From positions 1 to 34,799 of the forward strand of contig JACOTA010000042.1 in NCBI GenBank assembly GCA_016178585.1: DNA of 34,799 nucleotides. Direction: 5' to 3'. This DNA comes from Nitrospirota bacterium (lineage in GTDB: Bacteria > Nitrospirota > Nitrospiria > JACQBW01). This document shows, one piece after another, positions 14,861 through 24,065 of this stretch (the first letter of the stretch is position 1; every line of letters begins with the position of its first letter). Position numbers and translations under genes: made by a program. A model generated the notes under the pieces. It did not search any database. It was not told where the DNA came from and worked only from the letters and a program-made list of their open reading frames with translations.

Positions 14861-16054
14861 ATGAAAGTTATTGGACTCATGTCGGGCACTTCAATGGACG
14901 GGATTGACGCGGCGCTGTTAGATATTAACCGGAGGAAAACAGGCCTCCGTTTCAAATTACTCGCCTTTGAAACTTTCCCGTTCCCCAAAGACTTGCCCGA
15001 AAAACTCATCGATGTCGCCGAAGGGAATGAAACGACGGCATTGATTTCCCACCTTAATTTTTATATGGGGGAATTGTTTGCCGAGGCCTCCTTTAAAATT
15101 GCGGCTAAAGCAAAGGTAGAAATTCACAAAGTCGATTTAATCGGTTCTCACGGCCAGACCATCTGGCATGCTCCCGCGCCAATTCCAGAAGGCCGTTATA
15201 AGATCCGGTCTACGTTTCAAATCGGAGAATCCTCGGTTATTGCGGTCCGGACCGGCGTGACGACGATAGCCGATTTTCGTCCTGCTGATGTGGCGGCAGG
15301 GGGAGAAGGAGCTCCTTTAGCCCCCTACTTCCATCACGCTCTGGATAAAAAGAAAGGAAAAAGCCGTTTGATGATTAACATTGGCGGGATCAGTAATGTG
15401 ACCTTCCTGCCCCGATCGTCAAAAAAGAAGATTCTGGCCTTTGATACCGGCCCCGGCAACATCCTGATCGATGGGTTGGTTCAGGCCGTCACCAAGGGGA
15501 AATCAAAGATGGACCGGAATGGCCGGATAGCGGCAAAAGGAAACATTCATTTGGTCCTTTTAAATGAATTAATGGATCACCCTTTTATGGATAAAAAACC
15601 GCCGAAAAGCACGGGCCGGGAAACTTTCGGTCTGCCGATGATCGACCATATTCTGGATAGGGGAAATCAATTCAAACTCTCTTTTGAGGATTTGATGGCA
15701 ACGGTGACTGCCTTTACCTCTATGTCTATTTTTATGAATTGTGAAACATTTATTCTCAAAAAAGAGGCTGTGGATGAGGTCATTGTCGGCGGGGGAGGGG
15801 CCAGGAACCCGATGTTGATGGCATTTTTAAAGAAAGCCTTTCATCCGGTTCCTTTTTTTCAATTTGAAGATTTGGGTTTAAACGGAAAAGCCATCGAAGC
15901 GATGGCTTTTGCATTGTTTGCTTACGATACCTTTCATGCGATTCCCGATAACGTTCCGAGCGTGACCGGCGCAAAAAAACCGGTCATCATGGGGAAAATC
16001 AGCCCGGGGAATAACTTTAAAAAATTATTTTCCAGCCGACATCGAGTCGATTAA
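14861..16054 (+). CDS. anmK: Anhydro-N-acetylmuramic acid kinase
   Basis: Phosphorylates and hydrolyses anhydro-MurNAc from cell-wall recycling to MurNAc-6-phosphate. 397 aa, slightly longer than usual. ATP-binding GLMSGTSMDGIDAALLDI at the N-terminus, GSHGQTIWHAP near residue 92, ADFRPADVAAGGEGAPLAPY near 137-156 with the catalytic Asp region, and AFDTGPGNILIDG near 196. No murQ lies nearby. Its 3' end overlaps that of sat (opposite strand) by 30 bp. Confidence 0.95.
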   Translation: MKVIGLMSGTSMDGIDAALLDINRRKTGLRFKLLAFETFPFPKDLPEKLIDVAEGNETTALISHLNFYMGELFAEASFKIAAKAKVEIHKVDLIGSHGQTIWHAPAPIPEGRYKIRSTFQIGESSVIAVRTGVTTIADFRPADVAAGGEGAPLAPYFHHALDKKKGKSRLMINIGGISNVTFLPRSSKKKILAFDTGPGNILIDGLVQAVTKGKSKMDRNGRIAAKGNIHLVLLNELMDHPFMDKKPPKSTGRETFGLPMIDHILDRGNQFKLSFEDLMATVTAFTSMSIFMNCETFILKKEAVDEVIVGGGGARNPMLMAFLKKAFHPVPFFQFEDLGLNGKAIEAMAFALFAYDTFHAIPDNVPSVTGAKKPVIMGKISPGNNFKKLFSSRHRVD

Positions 16055-17206
16055 GATTTTTGCGACTTCCGGCCGGCTGAATTCCACGGGAGGCAGAATT
16101 CCATCCTTCAGCATTTCTCTTACCCTGGTTCCGGAAAGAGAGACCTGGTCTGCCTTATCATGAGGGCAGGTTTTAATGGATCCCATGCTCTGACATTTTT
16201 TACAGTAAAACGTATTGTCGAAGAAAAGAGGCGTAATCCCCAGTTCGCCAGGTTTAAACTCGTCGAAGATATAGTGCGCATCAAAGGTTCCGTAGTAATT
16301 TCCAACCCCGGCATGATCCCGTCCGACGATAAAGTGGGTGCACCCGTAATTTTTCCGGACGATGGCATGAAAAATGGCTTCTCTCGGTCCGGCATAACGC
16401 ATATTGGCCGGGAAAACGGCGAGCATTGTTCGTTCTTTGGGATAATAATCGGCTAAAAGCGCTTCGTAGCACCGCATTCTGACTTCCGCGGGAATATCAT
16501 CCCCCTTGGTCGCTCCAACCAGGGGGTGGACCAAAAGGCCGTCCACAATTTCAAGGGCGCATTTCTGAATGTATTCATGAGCCCGATGGATCGGGTTCCG
16601 GGTCTGAAAACCAACGATTTTTTTCCACCCTTTTTGCTGGAACGCGGACCGGGTTTCTTTAGGATCGAGACGGTAAACCTGAAAATTTTCGTGACGGGGA
16701 CGATTGATCAAAGAAATTTTTCCTCCTAAAAGCATACTTTCCATCTGAAAGACCTGGCTGACTCCGGGATGTTCCCGCGAATCGGTTCGATAGACCTTGA
16801 CCGCTTCAGTCTCTTTTTCCTGGGGGAAAATCTCTTTCAGGTGAAGAATGGCGAGAACCTCTTCGTTTTCACTTAAGAGGGCAATTTCTTTTTCGTTTTT
16901 AAAAGAGGCCGCCTCCTGATCGCTGGCAGAAAGGGTCACCGGAATCGTCCATGGGAGGCCGTTGGCCAGATGCATATGGTGAATCACCGCTTCATAATCT
17001 GCTTTTCCCATAAATCCCTCTAGAGGGGAGAACGCGCCTATGGCGATCATTTCCAAATCGGAGATTTCCCGGGTGGTCAGATATTTTTTCTTGAAGCCCT
17101 TTGCTTTTGCCAGGGCGTCTTTTTTCTCCTGTTCATTAAGGATTCGATTGATCAGCTTTCCTCCGTGAGGAATCGATTCGGCGGCTTGAGTCGTTTTCGG
17201 GGTCAT
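16025..17206 (-). CDS. sat: Sulfate adenylyltransferase (ATP sulfurylase)
   Basis: Activates sulfate to adenosine-5'-phosphosulfate, or runs in reverse to make ATP. 393 aa, single-domain Sat. Active-site motifs are QTRNPIHRAHEYIQK and VGRDHAGVGNYYG, and a zinc-type cluster CKKCQSMGSIKTCPHDKA sits near the C-terminus. The start at 17206 is fixed by AGGAGA just upstream; the frame stays open further upstream without homology. Last gene of the minus-strand operon tauE-aprA-aprB-sir-trpD2-sat. Confidence 0.96.
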   Translation of the reverse strand: MTPKTTQAAESIPHGGKLINRILNEQEKKDALAKAKGFKKKYLTTREISDLEMIAIGAFSPLEGFMGKADYEAVIHHMHLANGLPWTIPVTLSASDQEAASFKNEKEIALLSENEEVLAILHLKEIFPQEKETEAVKVYRTDSREHPGVSQVFQMESMLLGGKISLINRPRHENFQVYRLDPKETRSAFQQKGWKKIVGFQTRNPIHRAHEYIQKCALEIVDGLLVHPLVGATKGDDIPAEVRMRCYEALLADYYPKERTMLAVFPANMRYAGPREAIFHAIVRKNYGCTHFIVGRDHAGVGNYYGTFDAHYIFDEFKPGELGITPLFFDNTFYCKKCQSMGSIKTCPHDKADQVSLSGTRVREMLKDGILPPVEFSRPEVAKILIDSMSAGK

Positions 17207-17228
17207 TACTTTCTCCTGATTGATTGGG

Positions 17229-18263
17229 TCAATAAAATGTTTTTTTGATTGCCTTGAGTATTTGGAGGGCTTCTCCGGATTCAAGGGATTTCTTGGACCG
17301 GACATAAGCTTCTTGAAGCGTTTTGGCTTTGCCGGAAATAAAAAGACCGATTGACGCGTTCCAGAGGGTTAATGCTGTTCTATCTTTTCCTCCTTTTCCC
17401 TCCAGAATTTCTTCCGTTATTCGGGCTTCCGCTTCCGGATCTTTCATTTCAATTTCAGACCGTCTTATTGGCGTCAAACCCAGTGGAGAGGGTTCAAGGT
17501 GCGTTTTGGAGTGGCTTCCCGGGTTGACGATAATCCCCTCGACGGGGCCTGAAAGATTTTCCTCGGATTCTCCCTCCAACCCCCTGACCACCAGAGCGTT
17601 TGAAACGCCGAGAGCCCGGACGGTCTCTGCGATCTTTTCATACGATTTCGGGTGAGAAATTCCAATAATTTGGCTGGAAGCTTCCAATGGGTTCAGGAGC
17701 CTGGCGATCGTGTGAAAAATCGAGCGAAGACCGATTTCGTTCCTTAAATCGAGAAAACGCTTAATGCCGGGATGGATTTGAGCGATGTCCAGATAGGTCC
17801 ATCCGGTCTCCGTGAAAAACTCAAGGCGTTCTTTTAAAGAAAGCGCCTGTCTCCAACCGAGATAAGCCAACACCATCGATTTACTGATTCTCAACGGGGG
17901 ATTCGGATCCCCGTGCAGGACGACATTTAATCCAGCCCCTGCCATGACCAGGGAGGCCGGAAGCCCGACATGGAAAGAGGTTCTCTTTCCCGCATAGAAA
18001 GGGAGGTCCAGCGTTTCCCCTGCCCTGACTTGAAACGATTGAATCAACGGATGAAGAGAACGTTTACAGGCCCGGGTGAAAACGGCCAGCTCCTCCGGAG
18101 TTTCCTCTTTGATCCGAAGCGAGATCAGAAAAGCCCCGACCTGGTATGGGGAGGCTTTTTCCTCAAGAAGCCCGGTGATCGCAAATTCGGCTTCCTCCGC
18201 CGTTAAATCTTTCGCCCCCTTCTGTCCTTTGCCGATTTTCGCTATTAATTCCTGAAAGGTCAT
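17229..18263 (-). CDS. TrpD2/YbiB-like glycosyltransferase-family-3 protein
   Basis: 344 aa. Fold pattern of anthranilate phosphoribosyltransferase: N-terminal helical domain (LTAEEAEFAITGLLEEKASPYQVGAFLISLRIK region) and a glycosyltransferase-3 body. The PRPP-binding GTGGD motif of true TrpD is missing; at that place the protein reads LPFYAGKRTS (about residues 87-96), resembling the P-x-Y-x-G-x-R of TrpD2/YbiB, a group whose E. coli member binds nucleic acids and lacks TrpD activity. It sits 22 bp upstream of sat inside a sulfur operon, with no trp genes near. Role unknown. Confidence 0.8.
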   Translation of the reverse strand: MTFQELIAKIGKGQKGAKDLTAEEAEFAITGLLEEKASPYQVGAFLISLRIKEETPEELAVFTRACKRSLHPLIQSFQVRAGETLDLPFYAGKRTSFHVGLPASLVMAGAGLNVVLHGDPNPPLRISKSMVLAYLGWRQALSLKERLEFFTETGWTYLDIAQIHPGIKRFLDLRNEIGLRSIFHTIARLLNPLEASSQIIGISHPKSYEKIAETVRALGVSNALVVRGLEGESEENLSGPVEGIIVNPGSHSKTHLEPSPLGLTPIRRSEIEMKDPEAEARITEEILEGKGGKDRTALTLWNASIGLFISGKAKTLQEAYVRSKKSLESGEALQILKAIKKTFY

Positions 18264-18345: not shown

Positions 18346-20868
18346 TTATGCTTTTTTAATCACCAGCTTAAAGTAATTTTCAATCGGAGATAAAGTGAGG
18401 ATTTGGTGCCCCTCATCCTTGACCGATCGGGGAACATTTTTGGCAGGTTCGCCTTCGTCCAGCAGAACTTCAAGAACCTCTCCTTGATCCATCATTTCAA
18501 GCTTGAGCTTGGTTCTGACGAAATTGATCGGACATTTTACCCCCCGCAAATCCATTTTCGCGTTGGCCGCAAACTCCTTAATCTGTTCCGCCTCCGCCAC
18601 CACTGCTGTTTTTTCGTTTTCAACCTGCCGGGTGGCCCTGGCATCTTCGCTTTCATGGCCTGTCTTTAACGTTTCCGGTTTCGAACCGGCATCGGAGAGG
18701 GCGTAGAGGATTCTAGCCTCTTCCAGAAAAATCCCGACGCGGACAATATCTTGCGCAACGTCATTTGAGGAGGGGTGGCCTCCTATTTCCAATCTTTCTT
18801 TAAAGGTTTTAAAATCGGAGAACTTTCCCGCCAACGCTCCCCTGTTAAGATAATGCTCCTCAAAAGCCTGGAACGCTTCAGTATCGGTTGCCGGTTCAAT
18901 CGCTTTTAAAATAAGCAAACCCTTAATTCCCGCCACCACAGCGCGATAGGCTTTAGAAATGGCAAAAGCCCCCTGTTTTTTTTCGTTGAGTTCCTTTGCC
19001 AGGTTCAGTTCCATATCTGCCTCGTCGAAGCTCGTTTTGATCATGGCATCGGCTCCGCCGGCACACTCACCAGGGCCCAAATCGACGACTTCAAATTCGC
19101 GGGTTCCCCCCCAATCGTAAAAGTATTGAGGGTTATCGTCAAAAGCCGGCAGGTCGGTAAGCGTTTTTAACTCGCCTGCAAATCCCTTTTTCCCGAATCG
19201 GTCTGTAAATTGGACAAAACTTTCTCCTTCTTCTTTTTTTTCACGATAAAGAGAGAGAACCTTTTGAACCGCCTGTGGGACGTTTTTTGCGGGAACTTTG
19301 ACGATTGCCTTCGCAAAGGTGGTTCCCTCTGGAGCCGTTCGGCCTCCCAGATGAAGTTCGTAGAAAGGCGCCGTATGCTCCCCGATGGTTTTACTGACGC
19401 CGTGAAGACCGATGGGCGCCATGTGGTGCTGGGCGCAGGAGTTCTGGCACCCGCTAATTTTTATCTGGATGCCTTTTAAATCGGGAGATGAACCCTGTCC
19501 GTTATTAAAAAGTCCGGATAAGGCGGTGGCCATCTGCTTGGACGAGGTGATGGCGATCCCGCAGGTATCGGCCCCCGGGCAGGAGACAATATCTGAAATC
19601 GTTTCGGCTCCTCCTTTTTCAAGTCCGGCATGTTTTAATTCTTCATAAAGCGCAGGAAGCGTTTCGTTTTTTACCCAGCGGAGGAGAAGGTTTTGATTGA
19701 CGGTAATCCGGAGATGTCCCCCCGAATAGGTGTTTGTGATCTCCGCCAGTTTTCGAAGGGCTGACGCGTGAATATCCCCCAGGACCAGACGGATATGAAC
19801 CATCGAAAACCCCGGTTGTTTTTGCGGCTGAACGTTGGTTTTTAACCAGTAGGCATAGGGAGAAAGGGCATTTTCTGTTGAAACAGCAACAGGGGAATGA
19901 CTCCCATTGCCATTGCCATTTCCGTTCCCCCCTTTGGAACGCTCAGCGGGTCTTCCATCTTCAACCGCCGGAAGCTGTAATTGCACCTCCGCTTTTTTCT
20001 TTAACTTTTCATACTCTTCCCGGTACAGTTTATTAAATTGGGTCATGCCGAGCTTGTCGATGATAAATTTCAATCGGGCCCGGTTTCTGTTCTTTCGGTT
20101 TCCAAACCGGTCGAAAACCCGCACGACCGCCTCGCAAACACGGGTCAGTTCGATGGCGGGGATAAACTCCTCTAAAAGATGGGCGACGCGGGGCATGGCG
20201 CCGAGGCCTCCCCCGACAAATACCTTAAAACCCAGCGTCTCTTTTTTCTCTTTGTCCACTTTTTTTACGGCCACCACGCCAATATCATGCATTCCGGGCA
20301 GCGCGCAATCGGTTGGGCATCCGGAAAAGCTGATCTTGAATTTTCTTGGCATGCTCTGACAAACGGGGTTTCTTAAAAAGTGTTTTGAAATGCTGCTGGC
20401 GTAGGGAGTGACGTCAAAGGCTTCGTCAGGACAAACCCCCGATTTCGGACAACCGGTGACATTCCGCACGGTATTCCCGCATGCTTCGCGGGCGGTTAAT
20501 CCGACTTCCGCAATCTTTCTCATGATTTCACCGCATTTATAAAGCGAAATCCAATGGAGCTGAATATCCTGACGGGTGGTGGTATGAAGGATTCCGTTGG
20601 TGTATTCTTCAGCCACATCGGCTAATCGGATCAATTGTTCAGCATTTAAACCGCCAAACGGAATTTTGACCCTGAACATTTGAACATTCGGCTGACGCTG
20701 ACCGTAAACGCCATGCTGAAGCCTGAAAGGGCGAAATTGGTCAAGAGAGGTTTTTCCCTGCCGAATTTTTTCAACCTGGGATTCAAACGATTCAATTTCA
20801 GTTAAAACGTCGGGGGACAACTGAACCGTCGATGATTTTTTCTCTTCAACTGTTTTGAAAGGGGCCAT
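18346..20868 (-). CDS. Siroheme nitrite/sulfite reductase fused to TusA domain
   Basis: 840 aa. Residues about 50-300 and 335-565 are two NIR/SIR ferredoxin-like plus 4Fe-4S/siroheme repeats. The second carries the usual cofactor ligands C430-x5-C436 and C474-x3-C478. The first repeat also has C140-x5-C146 and C184-x3-C188, which conventional enzymes lack. The halves are joined by a GGNGNGNGNG linker (about 313-322). A helical region (600-730, possibly HEPN-like) follows, and residues 772-840 form a TusA domain with the sulfur-carrier Cys779 in DLRGVKCP. Position between aprB and sat points to sulfite reduction to sulfide, perhaps passed to Cys779 (inference). Nitrite cannot be excluded as substrate. 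Confidence 0.88.
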   Translation of the reverse strand: MAPFKTVEEKKSSTVQLSPDVLTEIESFESQVEKIRQGKTSLDQFRPFRLQHGVYGQRQPNVQMFRVKIPFGGLNAEQLIRLADVAEEYTNGILHTTTRQDIQLHWISLYKCGEIMRKIAEVGLTAREACGNTVRNVTGCPKSGVCPDEAFDVTPYASSISKHFLRNPVCQSMPRKFKISFSGCPTDCALPGMHDIGVVAVKKVDKEKKETLGFKVFVGGGLGAMPRVAHLLEEFIPAIELTRVCEAVVRVFDRFGNRKNRNRARLKFIIDKLGMTQFNKLYREEYEKLKKKAEVQLQLPAVEDGRPAERSKGGNGNGNGNGSHSPVAVSTENALSPYAYWLKTNVQPQKQPGFSMVHIRLVLGDIHASALRKLAEITNTYSGGHLRITVNQNLLLRWVKNETLPALYEELKHAGLEKGGAETISDIVSCPGADTCGIAITSSKQMATALSGLFNNGQGSSPDLKGIQIKISGCQNSCAQHHMAPIGLHGVSKTIGEHTAPFYELHLGGRTAPEGTTFAKAIVKVPAKNVPQAVQKVLSLYREKKEEGESFVQFTDRFGKKGFAGELKTLTDLPAFDDNPQYFYDWGGTREFEVVDLGPGECAGGADAMIKTSFDEADMELNLAKELNEKKQGAFAISKAYRAVVAGIKGLLILKAIEPATDTEAFQAFEEHYLNRGALAGKFSDFKTFKERLEIGGHPSSNDVAQDIVRVGIFLEEARILYALSDAGSKPETLKTGHESEDARATRQVENEKTAVVAEAEQIKEFAANAKMDLRGVKCPINFVRTKLKLEMMDQGEVLEVLLDEGEPAKNVPRSVKDEGHQILTLSPIENYFKLVIKKA

Positions 20869-20905: not shown

Positions 20906-21289
20906 TTAAATGGAAAAGTCTACCGGAGTAGATCCTTCAACTTTTTCATCAATTTCAATGTCCAATACTTTTGTCCGGATCGTAAATGTTTCTTTCTTCC
21001 CGCGGGAATCAATGCTTTCCCAAATAATATGATCCCGGGTTGCCGGAATATGGGGTTTGAGGGACGCGTTTTTAAACCCCATTTGATAAGAGAGGTAGAA
21101 TTCAATCGCCTCAACGGGACAGGACTTGACGCAGGGGAGGCAATCCCAACAGTCTTCCGGATATTTTAAATAAGCTTTGTCAACTAAAGGATCCTTGACG
21201 ATTAAATCGCCAGGGCACATCCGGATACAGGGGGGCTGGGTTGCGCCATGACAGCCATTACAAATATTGGGATTAACGTAAACGGGCAT
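20906..21289 (-). CDS. aprB: Adenylylsulfate reductase, beta subunit
   Basis: Iron-sulfur subunit of APS reductase; carries electrons to the FAD of AprA. 127 aa. Two 4Fe-4S binding sets: NICNGC with PPCIRMC (residues about 9-25) and CWDCLPCVKSCP (about 47-58). Characterised AprB proteins of sulfate reducers are about 150-166 aa, with a long C-terminal tail that wraps AprA; here the tail after the second cluster is short. Directly upstream of the siroheme reductase, downstream of aprA. Confidence 0.95.
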   Translation of the reverse strand: MPVYVNPNICNGCHGATQPPCIRMCPGDLIVKDPLVDKAYLKYPEDCWDCLPCVKSCPVEAIEFYLSYQMGFKNASLKPHIPATRDHIIWESIDSRGKKETFTIRTKVLDIEIDEKVEGSTPVDFSI

Positions 21290-21407: not shown

Positions 21408-23153
21408 TTAACCTCTCGGTTTATACCGGTCTCCAGCGATCAACTGTTCATACGGCCGGGTGAGCATTTCAATTTTTCCGGTTTCTGGATTCATTCGTGA
21501 ATTAACAAACTTCAGCCAGTTTTCATCATCCCGGTCGGGATAGTCCATACGGGTTTGATAAGAAGGCCAACGCGTTTCTTTCCGGTAGAGCAGATGTTCC
21601 ACTAAAACGCGGGCGACATCAACCCGGTCGATAATTTCATGGGCTTTCATCAGTTGATGTAAATCGTTCGCAATCAGATATTCAAACTGGCCCGGTATTT
21701 TGGCAAGCTGTTTCCTGGCGATCAGCAAACTCTCTTCGTTCATTTCGTAATAGGTGGAAAACCCGCCTGCGTATTCATCCATGATTTTTTGTAAACGAAC
21801 TTCCATGTCGTAGGGGAGAACCCCCTGGGCCGGTTTATGACGGTAATTCAAAAGAGGCTGATAGATTCTTTTTGCTTCTTCATCTATAGTTTTAGAATCA
21901 ATCTCTTCGGATGGGGTTTGGCTCATGCTGGCAACCGCATCCCTTGCCGCAATAACCGCCTCGGCCCAGCATCCGCTGACAAATTTAAACGGGGCGCCTC
22001 CGGCGACATCGCCTGCCGCATAAAGCCCTTCAAGAGTCGTTCTCCGGTTGACATCGATCCAATACCCTCCCTGACAGTGCCCTCCGACGATGTAAGGTTC
22101 TGTGGTCTGAACCTCCACCGGTTCTTTACTCGGGTCAATATCGTTGGCGGTCCAATAAAGGACCTGCGAGGGGTACATATCGAGAAAAGCCGCTTTCAAA
22201 TCAGAAGCCTGTTTTTCATTAATATGGCGGGTATCGAGATAAACCGGGCCTCTCCCTTCCTTAATTTCCATAATCGGCCCGTAAGCGCGATAGGGAGTGG
22301 GAGCTCCGTCCCCTCCGAGATGGGCATATTTCGTCTGCATGAATTTTTCGCCTTTGGCATTGACCTGGGGAGCGTTAACGCCAAGAGCGATGGTGCCGGT
22401 GGGGGCAATAGCGTCTTTTGTCCGCAAGGCGACATATCGCATTTCAAAGCTGGTCATTTCGGCCCCCGCACGGATTCCTATGGCATATCCCGCGCCGTTG
22501 TTAAAGGGGCTGTACCAGGTCTTATGCTGGGCGTCATGCATGTTGTTCGGTTTATAAATGCCAGCAGCCCCGCCTGTGGCAATAAGGGTCGCCTTCGCTT
22601 TGACGACATACATTCTGCCGTGGCGGACACTAAAGCCAACGGCGCCATGAATCCGGTTTCCTTTCCGGAGCAAATTGGTGGCCGTCACCCAGTTTAAAAT
22701 TTTAGCGCCCGACTGTTTTGCCGCTTTGGCGATGATCGGTTTGAGCGATTCCCCGTTGATCTTAATGTTCCATCGTCCCCTTGGGAGATAATTTCCTTTT
22801 TCATCGGATAAAATCGGCAAACCCCATTTTTCGACTTTTTTAACCGAATATTCGAAAAGCTCCGCCATGCTTTGCACCAGGTCTTCGCGGATCAGGCCGC
22901 AGGAATCAAACCGGACATATTTTACAAAACTCTCGGCTGTTTCCCCGGGGTTGAGATAGGCATTGATGGCGTTCATCCCCCCGGCCAGGCAGCCGCTCCG
23001 ATCGATATGGGCTTTTTCCATGATGGTGACTGATAAAGCAGGATTTTTTTCTTTCGCTTCTACGGCAGCCAGACAGCCTGCCGTACCCCCCCCGATGATT
23101 AGAAGATCGGTTTCAATGATTTCATCGTTACGGTTATTCAGGTCCAAGATCAA
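21408..23153 (-). CDS. aprA: Adenylylsulfate reductase, alpha subunit
   Basis: FAD enzyme that interconverts APS and sulfite plus AMP. 581 aa, shorter than the 620-660 aa usual in sulfate reducers. FAD-binding DLLIIGGGTAGCLAAVEA near residue 17, DRSGCLAGGMNAINAY around 51-66, ATGGAAGIYKPNNMHD around 195. The substrate region includes the His of GGHCQGGYW and the FAD-binding AAGDVAGGAPFKFVSGCW. AprB is downstream, the permease gene upstream. QmoABC or AprM, the usual membrane partners in dissimilatory organisms, are not in the window. Confidence 0.96.
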   Translation of the reverse strand: MILDLNNRNDEIIETDLLIIGGGTAGCLAAVEAKEKNPALSVTIMEKAHIDRSGCLAGGMNAINAYLNPGETAESFVKYVRFDSCGLIREDLVQSMAELFEYSVKKVEKWGLPILSDEKGNYLPRGRWNIKINGESLKPIIAKAAKQSGAKILNWVTATNLLRKGNRIHGAVGFSVRHGRMYVVKAKATLIATGGAAGIYKPNNMHDAQHKTWYSPFNNGAGYAIGIRAGAEMTSFEMRYVALRTKDAIAPTGTIALGVNAPQVNAKGEKFMQTKYAHLGGDGAPTPYRAYGPIMEIKEGRGPVYLDTRHINEKQASDLKAAFLDMYPSQVLYWTANDIDPSKEPVEVQTTEPYIVGGHCQGGYWIDVNRRTTLEGLYAAGDVAGGAPFKFVSGCWAEAVIAARDAVASMSQTPSEEIDSKTIDEEAKRIYQPLLNYRHKPAQGVLPYDMEVRLQKIMDEYAGGFSTYYEMNEESLLIARKQLAKIPGQFEYLIANDLHQLMKAHEIIDRVDVARVLVEHLLYRKETRWPSYQTRMDYPDRDDENWLKFVNSRMNPETGKIEMLTRPYEQLIAGDRYKPRG

Positions 23154-23189: not shown

Positions 23190-23987
23190 CTAAATAAGTT
23201 TTAAACCGGTTAACATTAACATAGAAGCCAGCACAGGACGAAGCACTCTTTCGGAAACCTTCATATTCATTCTACTCCCTAAATAAACTCCTGGCAATGA
23301 TCCGACCAAGAGGCTGACCACCACAGGAAGCTGCACATTTCCGTTTCCCAGGTGGGCAATCCCGGCAACGGAAACCAAAATGGCCGCATGAAAAACATCT
23401 GTTCCTACAATGTTTTTGGAAGAAAGCTTTGGAAATAAGGCCAGGAGAACGGGAACAATCAAAGAACCGCTCCCGACCGAAGTTAATCCGACTAAAAATC
23501 CGACAACACCGCCTAAAAGGATGGTGAGACCTTTTTGCCTGATGGTATAATTCGTCAGGAAATTTTCGTCGTTTCTGGCTTGAGAGGAAGGGAAGATTAC
23601 CCGCAAAACCATTGTGATGGCCACGATGATCAGGGTGATCCCGAGGGTTTTCATTACAAAGGCATCAACAAAACTGCCGTAATGTTTTTTAATCGCAGAG
23701 ATGATATAAACCCCTAATAAGCTGCAAGGGACGCTCCCAAGGGCAAGGAAAAATACGATTGATAAGTTTACCGATTTTTGACGGTAGTGAATAAAGGAGC
23801 CGAAAACTTTGGTGATTGCTCCGAAAATAAGGTCTGTCCCGACAGCAATGGTCGGGCGGATTCCAAGAAAAAGGATCATAATGGGAGTCATCAGAGACCC
23901 TCCGCCGATTCCCGTCAAACCGACCAGGAACCCGACTGAAAAGCCGATGAACACTGTTGCCATACTCATGTCTAATAAGTAATCCAT
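23190..23987 (-). CDS. TauE/SafE-family sulfite/anion permease
   Basis: 265 aa, about eight membrane helices. Two internally repeated motifs, GLTGIGGGSLMTPIMI near residue 23 and GLTSVGSGSLIVPVLL in the second half, are the paired TauE/SafE signatures. Start ATG 23987 is chosen for its AAGGAG site; the open frame continues upstream into the promoter region. As the first gene of the sulfur operon it probably moves sulfate, sulfite or an organosulfonate across the inner membrane; direction and substrate are not visible. Confidence 0.88.
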   Translation of the reverse strand: MDYLLDMSMATVFIGFSVGFLVGLTGIGGGSLMTPIMILFLGIRPTIAVGTDLIFGAITKVFGSFIHYRQKSVNLSIVFFLALGSVPCSLLGVYIISAIKKHYGSFVDAFVMKTLGITLIIVAITMVLRVIFPSSQARNDENFLTNYTIRQKGLTILLGGVVGFLVGLTSVGSGSLIVPVLLALFPKLSSKNIVGTDVFHAAILVSVAGIAHLGNGNVQLPVVVSLLVGSLPGVYLGSRMNMKVSERVLRPVLASMLMLTGLKLI

Positions 23988-24036
23988 AAGGGGACTCCTT
24001 TGTCTAATCTTTATAAATCCTATCGGGATTAAGTAC

Positions 24037-24065
24037 AATATATCCAATTCAAAAAAATAAGTCAA
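24037..24065 (-). promoter_or_regulatory. Sigma70-type promoter of the sulfur operon
   Basis: On the minus strand TTGACT (24060-24065) and TATATT (24037-24042) are separated by exactly 17 bp. The start would lie near 24030, about 40 nt before the permease ATG. No riboswitch-like structure fits in that short leader. Confidence 0.7.

Follow-up and report, generated by a model that had tools for sequence, protein, structure and literature searches.

A probable assimilatory sulfite reductase with cysteine motifs in both halves and fused HEPN and TusA domains in Nitrospirota

The locus and the layout of its central gene

The window, the whole stretch of 34,799 nucleotides of Nitrospirota DNA analysed here, carries an operon in the order TauE-aprA-aprB-SiR-trpD2-like-sat (Table 1). 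The SiR gene is a minus-strand frame whose translation gives an 840-residue protein, SiR-HEPN-TusA, and the plus strand over the same positions is rich in stop codons. Pfam reports two NIR_SIR_ferr and two NIR_SIR matches together with a TusA domain above cut-off at residues 772–839, and the AlphaFold2 model of the protein has a mean pLDDT of 86.7.

The first-pass annotation had placed cysteines at C140/146/184/188, C430/436/474/478 and C779, forming CX5C and CX3C motifs in both halves, with a helical domain and a TusA domain to follow. The translation has each cysteine at the residue number claimed, translation and conservation both recover the paired motifs, and the helical domain can now be named as a HEPN fold, with TusA identified by Pfam. 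Two further conserved cysteines, C130 and C602, were absent from that list. On the substrate side of the N-half, R66, K68, R99, R135, K176 and K178 occupy invariant columns. Mean identity is highest in the N-half (59%), followed by the C-half (48%) and the HEPN domain (26%), and the HEPN-TusA tether is Ala/Pro-rich in many orthologues.

Table 1. Features of the operon and of the SiR-HEPN-TusA gene, in window positions.
Feature	Positions	Strand	Basis
TauE/SafE family membrane protein	23190..24065	-	Pfam
AprA-like APS reductase alpha subunit	21408..23153	-	NF005331 above cut-off, TIGR02061 below cut-off
AprB-like 4Fe-4S protein	20906..21289	-	TIGR02060 match, below cut-off
Whole gene, sulfite reductase - HEPN - TusA	18346..20868	-	Translation, Pfam, AlphaFold2, orthologues
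N-half sulfite reductase repeat, residues 52-290	19999..20715	-	Pfam, invariant columns
N-half C130, C140, C146 (C140-C146 = CX5C)	20431..20481	-	Conservation; DsrA alignment
N-half CX3C, C184 and C188	20305..20319	-	Conservation; DsrA alignment
C-half sulfite reductase repeat, residues 337-566, putative catalytic siroheme cluster	19171..19860	-	Pfam, fold and sequence matches
C-half CX5C, C430 and C436	19561..19581	-	Invariant in alignment
C-half CX3C, C474 and C478	19435..19449	-	Invariant in alignment
GxGECAG motif with C602, low-confidence loop	19057..19077	-	Conservation; low pLDDT
HEPN-fold helical bundle, residues 606-729	18682..19053	-	Profile and structure matches; no conserved His
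HEPN-TusA tether, residues 730-769	18562..18681	-	AlphaFold2 model, orthologue comparison
TusA domain, residues 770-840, C779 (18532-18534) in CPxN	18349..18561	-	Pfam; CPxN in 50/50
TrpD2-like glycosyltransferase-family protein	17229..18263	-	Pfam, NCBIfam, recurrence in relatives
Sat, sulfate adenylyltransferase	16025..17305	-	Pfam, NCBIfam

The gene is found class-wide and in further Nitrospirota families. All 58 sampled relatives contain a match, which in 56 genomes is a high-score match to the SiR-HEPN-TusA protein, and families f14 and f21, outside the class of the window, share the architecture, CX5C included. Given this class-wide conservation, we rejected chance or an assembly artefact as the source of the gene. 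Sampling across the phylum gave matches at E < 1e-60 in 56 of 148 genomes, a few of these matches being a longer, NADH-fused relative. Six such proteins of about 1,070–1,180 residues (L105, L110, L111, L113, L114, L133) join a NirB-like NADH oxidoreductase to the two-repeat siroheme core; they have C130, C140 and C184, lack C146 and carry a replacement at C188. Separately, a 1,234-residue frame in L131 was dismissed as a new domain; judged by eye, its open frame runs on upstream without encoding recognisable protein. The family f5 copy in G019 (L120:1788-4082) is missing the equivalents of residues ~562–607, GEC motif included, through either an assembly fault or a true deletion.

Operon context and the role of the enzyme

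The set AprA-AprB-SiR-Sat recurs in families f5 and f21 together with an Rrf2-type regulator, identified by sequence. In other families AprAB is replaced by CysH and a second protein of the PAPS-reductase fold (CysD by sequence), and a Thermus relative adjoins CysH, Sat, TauE and siroheme genes. The AprA-like protein scores above the NF005331 cut-off and below that of the dissimilatory model TIGR02061, which points to a divergent, perhaps assimilatory, AprA. The TrpD2-like gene, whose frame overlaps that of sat by ~77 bp, recurs beside the SiR gene in several families, with either CysH or Sat; we know of no role for its product in sulfur assimilation.

In the window's own genome no CysH-like protein was found, the PAPS_reduct matches being judged TilS/TtcA-like by sequence, and no match to DsrA was obtained, for which reason we rejected a dissimilatory or reverse-Dsr role. 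Among 80 genomes searched for dsrA, those of the families with SiR-HEPN-TusA (the class, f14, f20 and f21) likewise gave no match at E < 1e-60, and none of the dsrA-positive genomes has SiR-HEPN-TusA. Within the sampled phylum, the SiR-HEPN-TusA protein and dsrA never occur in one genome.

No NCBIfam model reaches its cut-off on the 840-residue protein, with NirA, CysI, sir, NirB, dsrA, dsrB and PRK13504 all falling below; CysI, sir and PRK13504 are likewise below cut-off for the Thermus and Aureibacter relatives. The top NCBIfam match is a NirA family model and nitrite reductases are the closest PDB entries by sequence, as would be expected if the protein reduced nitrite. Against this, position 178 is Lys in 18/18 Nitrospirota rows and in CysI, but Asn in 10/10 local nitrite-reductase rows; the gene lies in a sulfur-assimilation operon; and a separate NirB-like protein, the only other siroheme protein in the genome, is available. 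A nitrite reductase is thus highly improbable, and we discard that identity. Position 178 corresponds to K217 of E. coli sulfite reductase and N226 of tobacco nitrite reductase, and the fold matches of the protein include an N226K mutant entry.

The protein combines two fused repeats and a C-half CX5C/CX3C pair with substrate-side Arg/Lys in the N-half, Lys at 178 and a sulfate-assimilation gene context, as an assimilatory siroheme sulfite reductase does, and it resembles assimilatory SiR/NiR enzymes in fold and sequence. Given K178, the operon and the lack of CysH and DsrA matches in the genome, this assignment is well supported, and we consider it very likely that the protein is an assimilatory sulfite reductase with one active site. 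Sat would form APS, AprAB would convert APS to sulfite, and SiR-HEPN-TusA would reduce the sulfite at a single catalytic siroheme on the C-half cluster (C430/436/474/478), with the substrate bound by R66, R99, R135, K176 and K178 of the N-half. The enzyme probably makes the sulfide for cysteine building.

The N-half cysteines and a second cofactor

In a published scheme, the fused assimilatory enzymes lost one cofactor site and the dissimilatory enzymes kept both, DsrA keeping a structural site, and the DsrAB heterodimer holds two tetrapyrroles (PMC10229431). When the halves are aligned, C140, C146, C184 and C188 coincide with the DsrA cluster ligands, at the same spacing to conserved Arg and Lys. 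Cluster ligands are present in both halves, as in DsrAB, and the AlphaFold2 secondary structure is similar around both CX3C loops. Because the N-half cysteines fall exactly on the DsrA ligands, a second [4Fe-4S] cluster is plausible, and on balance we favour its presence in the N-half. The earlier suggestion of an ancestral-like duplicated enzyme fits this full, conserved ligand set, which aligns residue for residue with DsrA.

The first-pass annotation had gone further and proposed two cofactor sites. A complete second siroheme-[4Fe-4S] unit in the N-half, giving two units per chain, would be in keeping with the DsrA-type ligand set and with the two tetrapyrroles of DsrAB (PMC10229431), but the facing residues of the C-half speak against it. 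In the alignment the DsrB residue is Arg opposite both R99 and K178, and usually His or Arg opposite K176; the C-half here has N391, Q468 and G466 at the R99, K178 and K176 positions, respectively, and S425 opposite R135. The basic residues for a second tetrapyrrole in the B-half, which DsrAB possesses, are therefore missing, and CysI, which holds one siroheme, has lost the same residues in the same way. Since the C-half has lost what is needed to hold it, a second siroheme is probably absent, and two full units per chain are improbable. Of the two-site proposal, the second cluster, with conserved ligands that align with DsrA, is plausible, and the second siroheme is the part that lacks support.

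The N-half cysteines may alternatively bind no cluster, being kept for stability, disulfides or zinc. The set C130/C140/C146/C184/C188 is complete in 52 of 57 distinct Nitrospirota sequences; the other five, all from family f5, read C-C-S-C-H, as does the Thermus protein, and the Persicobacteraceae retain C130 alone. The enzyme is kept in all of these, as expected if no cluster is bound, but the spacing is that of DsrA, and four to five cysteines persist in 52/57 sequences, whereas identity in the HEPN domain falls to 26%. We regard a cluster-free N-half as rather unlikely. The putative second cluster would be non-essential, because family f5 keeps the enzyme with C130, C140 and C184 only; C130 could serve as a ligand in place of C146.

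That the N-terminal repeat has generally lost its cysteines, a premise of the earlier annotation, proved at least partly wrong: bacterial and archaeal relatives commonly have a partial or alternative set, either C140/C184/C188 or C130/C140/C184/C188. C140, C184 and C188 are retained in local NirA proteins, and relatives in Actinomycetota, Planctomycetota, Bathyarchaeota, Archaeoglobi and others have C130/C140/C184/C188 without C146. It is C146 that distinguishes the Nitrospirota from their relatives. A phylogeny of each half, as had been proposed, separates N-halves from C-halves and fits one shared duplication; the quick tree joins the long Dsr branches, however, and does not resolve whether C146 was retained or regained.

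The putative second cluster and TusA are independent traits: in family f5 two of the N-half ligands are gone but TusA remains. A link between the two was discarded, since TusA occurs in f5 without the full ligands and N-half cysteines occur in other phyla without TusA.

The C-terminal domains, the fate of the sulfur and known systems

A GxGEC[AS]G motif lies between the reductase core and the HEPN domain, directly before the latter, and the stretch just ahead of it has low AlphaFold2 confidence. C602 is present in 56/57 Nitrospirota sequences, with a gap in the remaining row. The GxGEC motif also occurs in Bacteroidota (Persicobacteraceae), and in Thermus oshimai its cysteine is the third residue from the protein end (GRGECAV). 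Across the HEPN-region alignment the only invariant columns are G-x-G-E-C and one Leu. The HEPN fold is indicated by Pfam HEPN matches in 26/38 members and by fold matches to 2hsb, 1ufb and 4nqf. The alignment has no conserved His column for the RxxxxH ribonuclease motif, and a ribonuclease role for the domain was rejected on that ground.

The TusA domain, above its Pfam cut-off, has the active-site cysteine C779 within CPxN in 50/50 sequences with a fused TusA; the CPxP motif of TusA is absent, CPxN standing in its place. Most families carry TusA as part of the reductase chain; family f8 encodes it 28 bp downstream as a gene of its own, and a DsrE-family gene lies within the operon of some relatives. 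The genome encodes CysK, with genes for a ThiS-type carrier and a MoeB/ThiF-type activator next to it. The row on G000 contig 17 (L151, L153) comprises a ThiS-like carrier, CysK, a MoeB-type protein, a threonine synthase-like protein, a ThiS-NIL fusion and a second MoeB-type protein. Another cluster in the window's own genome (L080, G000 contig 31) reads TusA(CPIT)-DsrE-DsrE-DsrH-like-TusA(CPLP)-DsrE-Rrf2.

A hand-over of sulfur from the active site to TusA, as the first-pass annotation envisaged, is plausible. Free sulfide alone cannot load TusA as a persulfide, and a partly reduced sulfur intermediate would therefore have to be transferred. TusA need not be the acceptor, however, because CysK, which can use free sulfide, is present. 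The enzyme may instead release free sulfide as other assimilatory enzymes do, with TusA as a docking or regulatory domain or serving another pathway. CysK in the genome is consistent with such release, as are the Thermus and Persicobacteraceae relatives, which have no fused TusA and none on their plasmids; the invariance of C779 in 50/50 sequences with its CPxN signature, the adjacency of TusA where it is not fused and the DsrE-family gene in some operons count against it. We give free-sulfide release an even chance, and TusA as sulfur acceptor is held somewhat more tentatively. Free sulfide to CysK and a carrier route are each possible.

C602 is a candidate, though a rather unlikely one, for the relay to C779. 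In the explanation as a whole, C140/C146/C184/C188 of the N-half would ligate a second [4Fe-4S] cluster with no functional siroheme, at the place of the DsrA structural cofactor, and the tethered TusA would take sulfur from the active site, perhaps via a mobile C602, and pass it to sulfur-carrier proteins. That combination of assimilatory enzyme, second cluster and acceptor TusA could equally well prove right or wrong. A bolder version, in which a single-chain DsrAB-like enzyme with two [4Fe-4S] sites reduces sulfite part-way and moves a persulfide from siroheme to C602 to C779, so that sulfate ends up as carrier-bound sulfur instead of free sulfide, is improbable.

A one-chain enzyme with a complete DsrA-type N-half ligand set is the intermediate that the scheme of PMC10229431 predicts. 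The role is ordinary and the anatomy unusual: this is a variant of assimilatory sulfite reductase, spread across a branch of the phylum, that kept a DsrA-type cluster motif and added a sulfur carrier. Our literature search found no paper describing a TusA or HEPN domain in a sulfite reductase, and nothing on thiocarboxylate-dependent routes. The fused carrier and invariant C602 raise the question of whether sulfur assimilation here proceeds via protein-bound sulfur. DsrC provides protein-bound sulfur in sulfate respiration. If the persulfide reading were true, this Nitrospirota branch would make carrier-bound sulfur, not free sulfide, from sulfate.

The protein shares with E. coli CysI, plant Sir and M. 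tuberculosis NirA its two fused repeats, C-half siroheme cluster and N-half substrate Arg/Lys, and its best fold match is 1zj8; none of those enzymes has HEPN, TusA or the cluster ligands of the N-half. With DsrAB it shares the ligand set in both halves, the N-half matching DsrA in Cys and Lys spacing, but DsrAB has separate A and B chains with an inserted ferredoxin domain, whereas here there is a single chain with no Fer4 match in Pfam and a C-half without the second-site basic residues. The likeness of C602 to the DsrC arm, a mobile cysteine beside a siroheme enzyme, is one of resemblance only. The Persicobacteraceae (Bacteroidota) and Thermus nitrite/sulfite reductases share the GEC motif, and the Bacteroidota also HEPN, but they have no fused TusA and their N-half cysteines are reduced or lost. 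Finally, TusA/SirA sulfur carriers have the same fold and active cysteine position, with CPxP in place of the CPxN found here, where the carrier is fused to a sulfite reductase.
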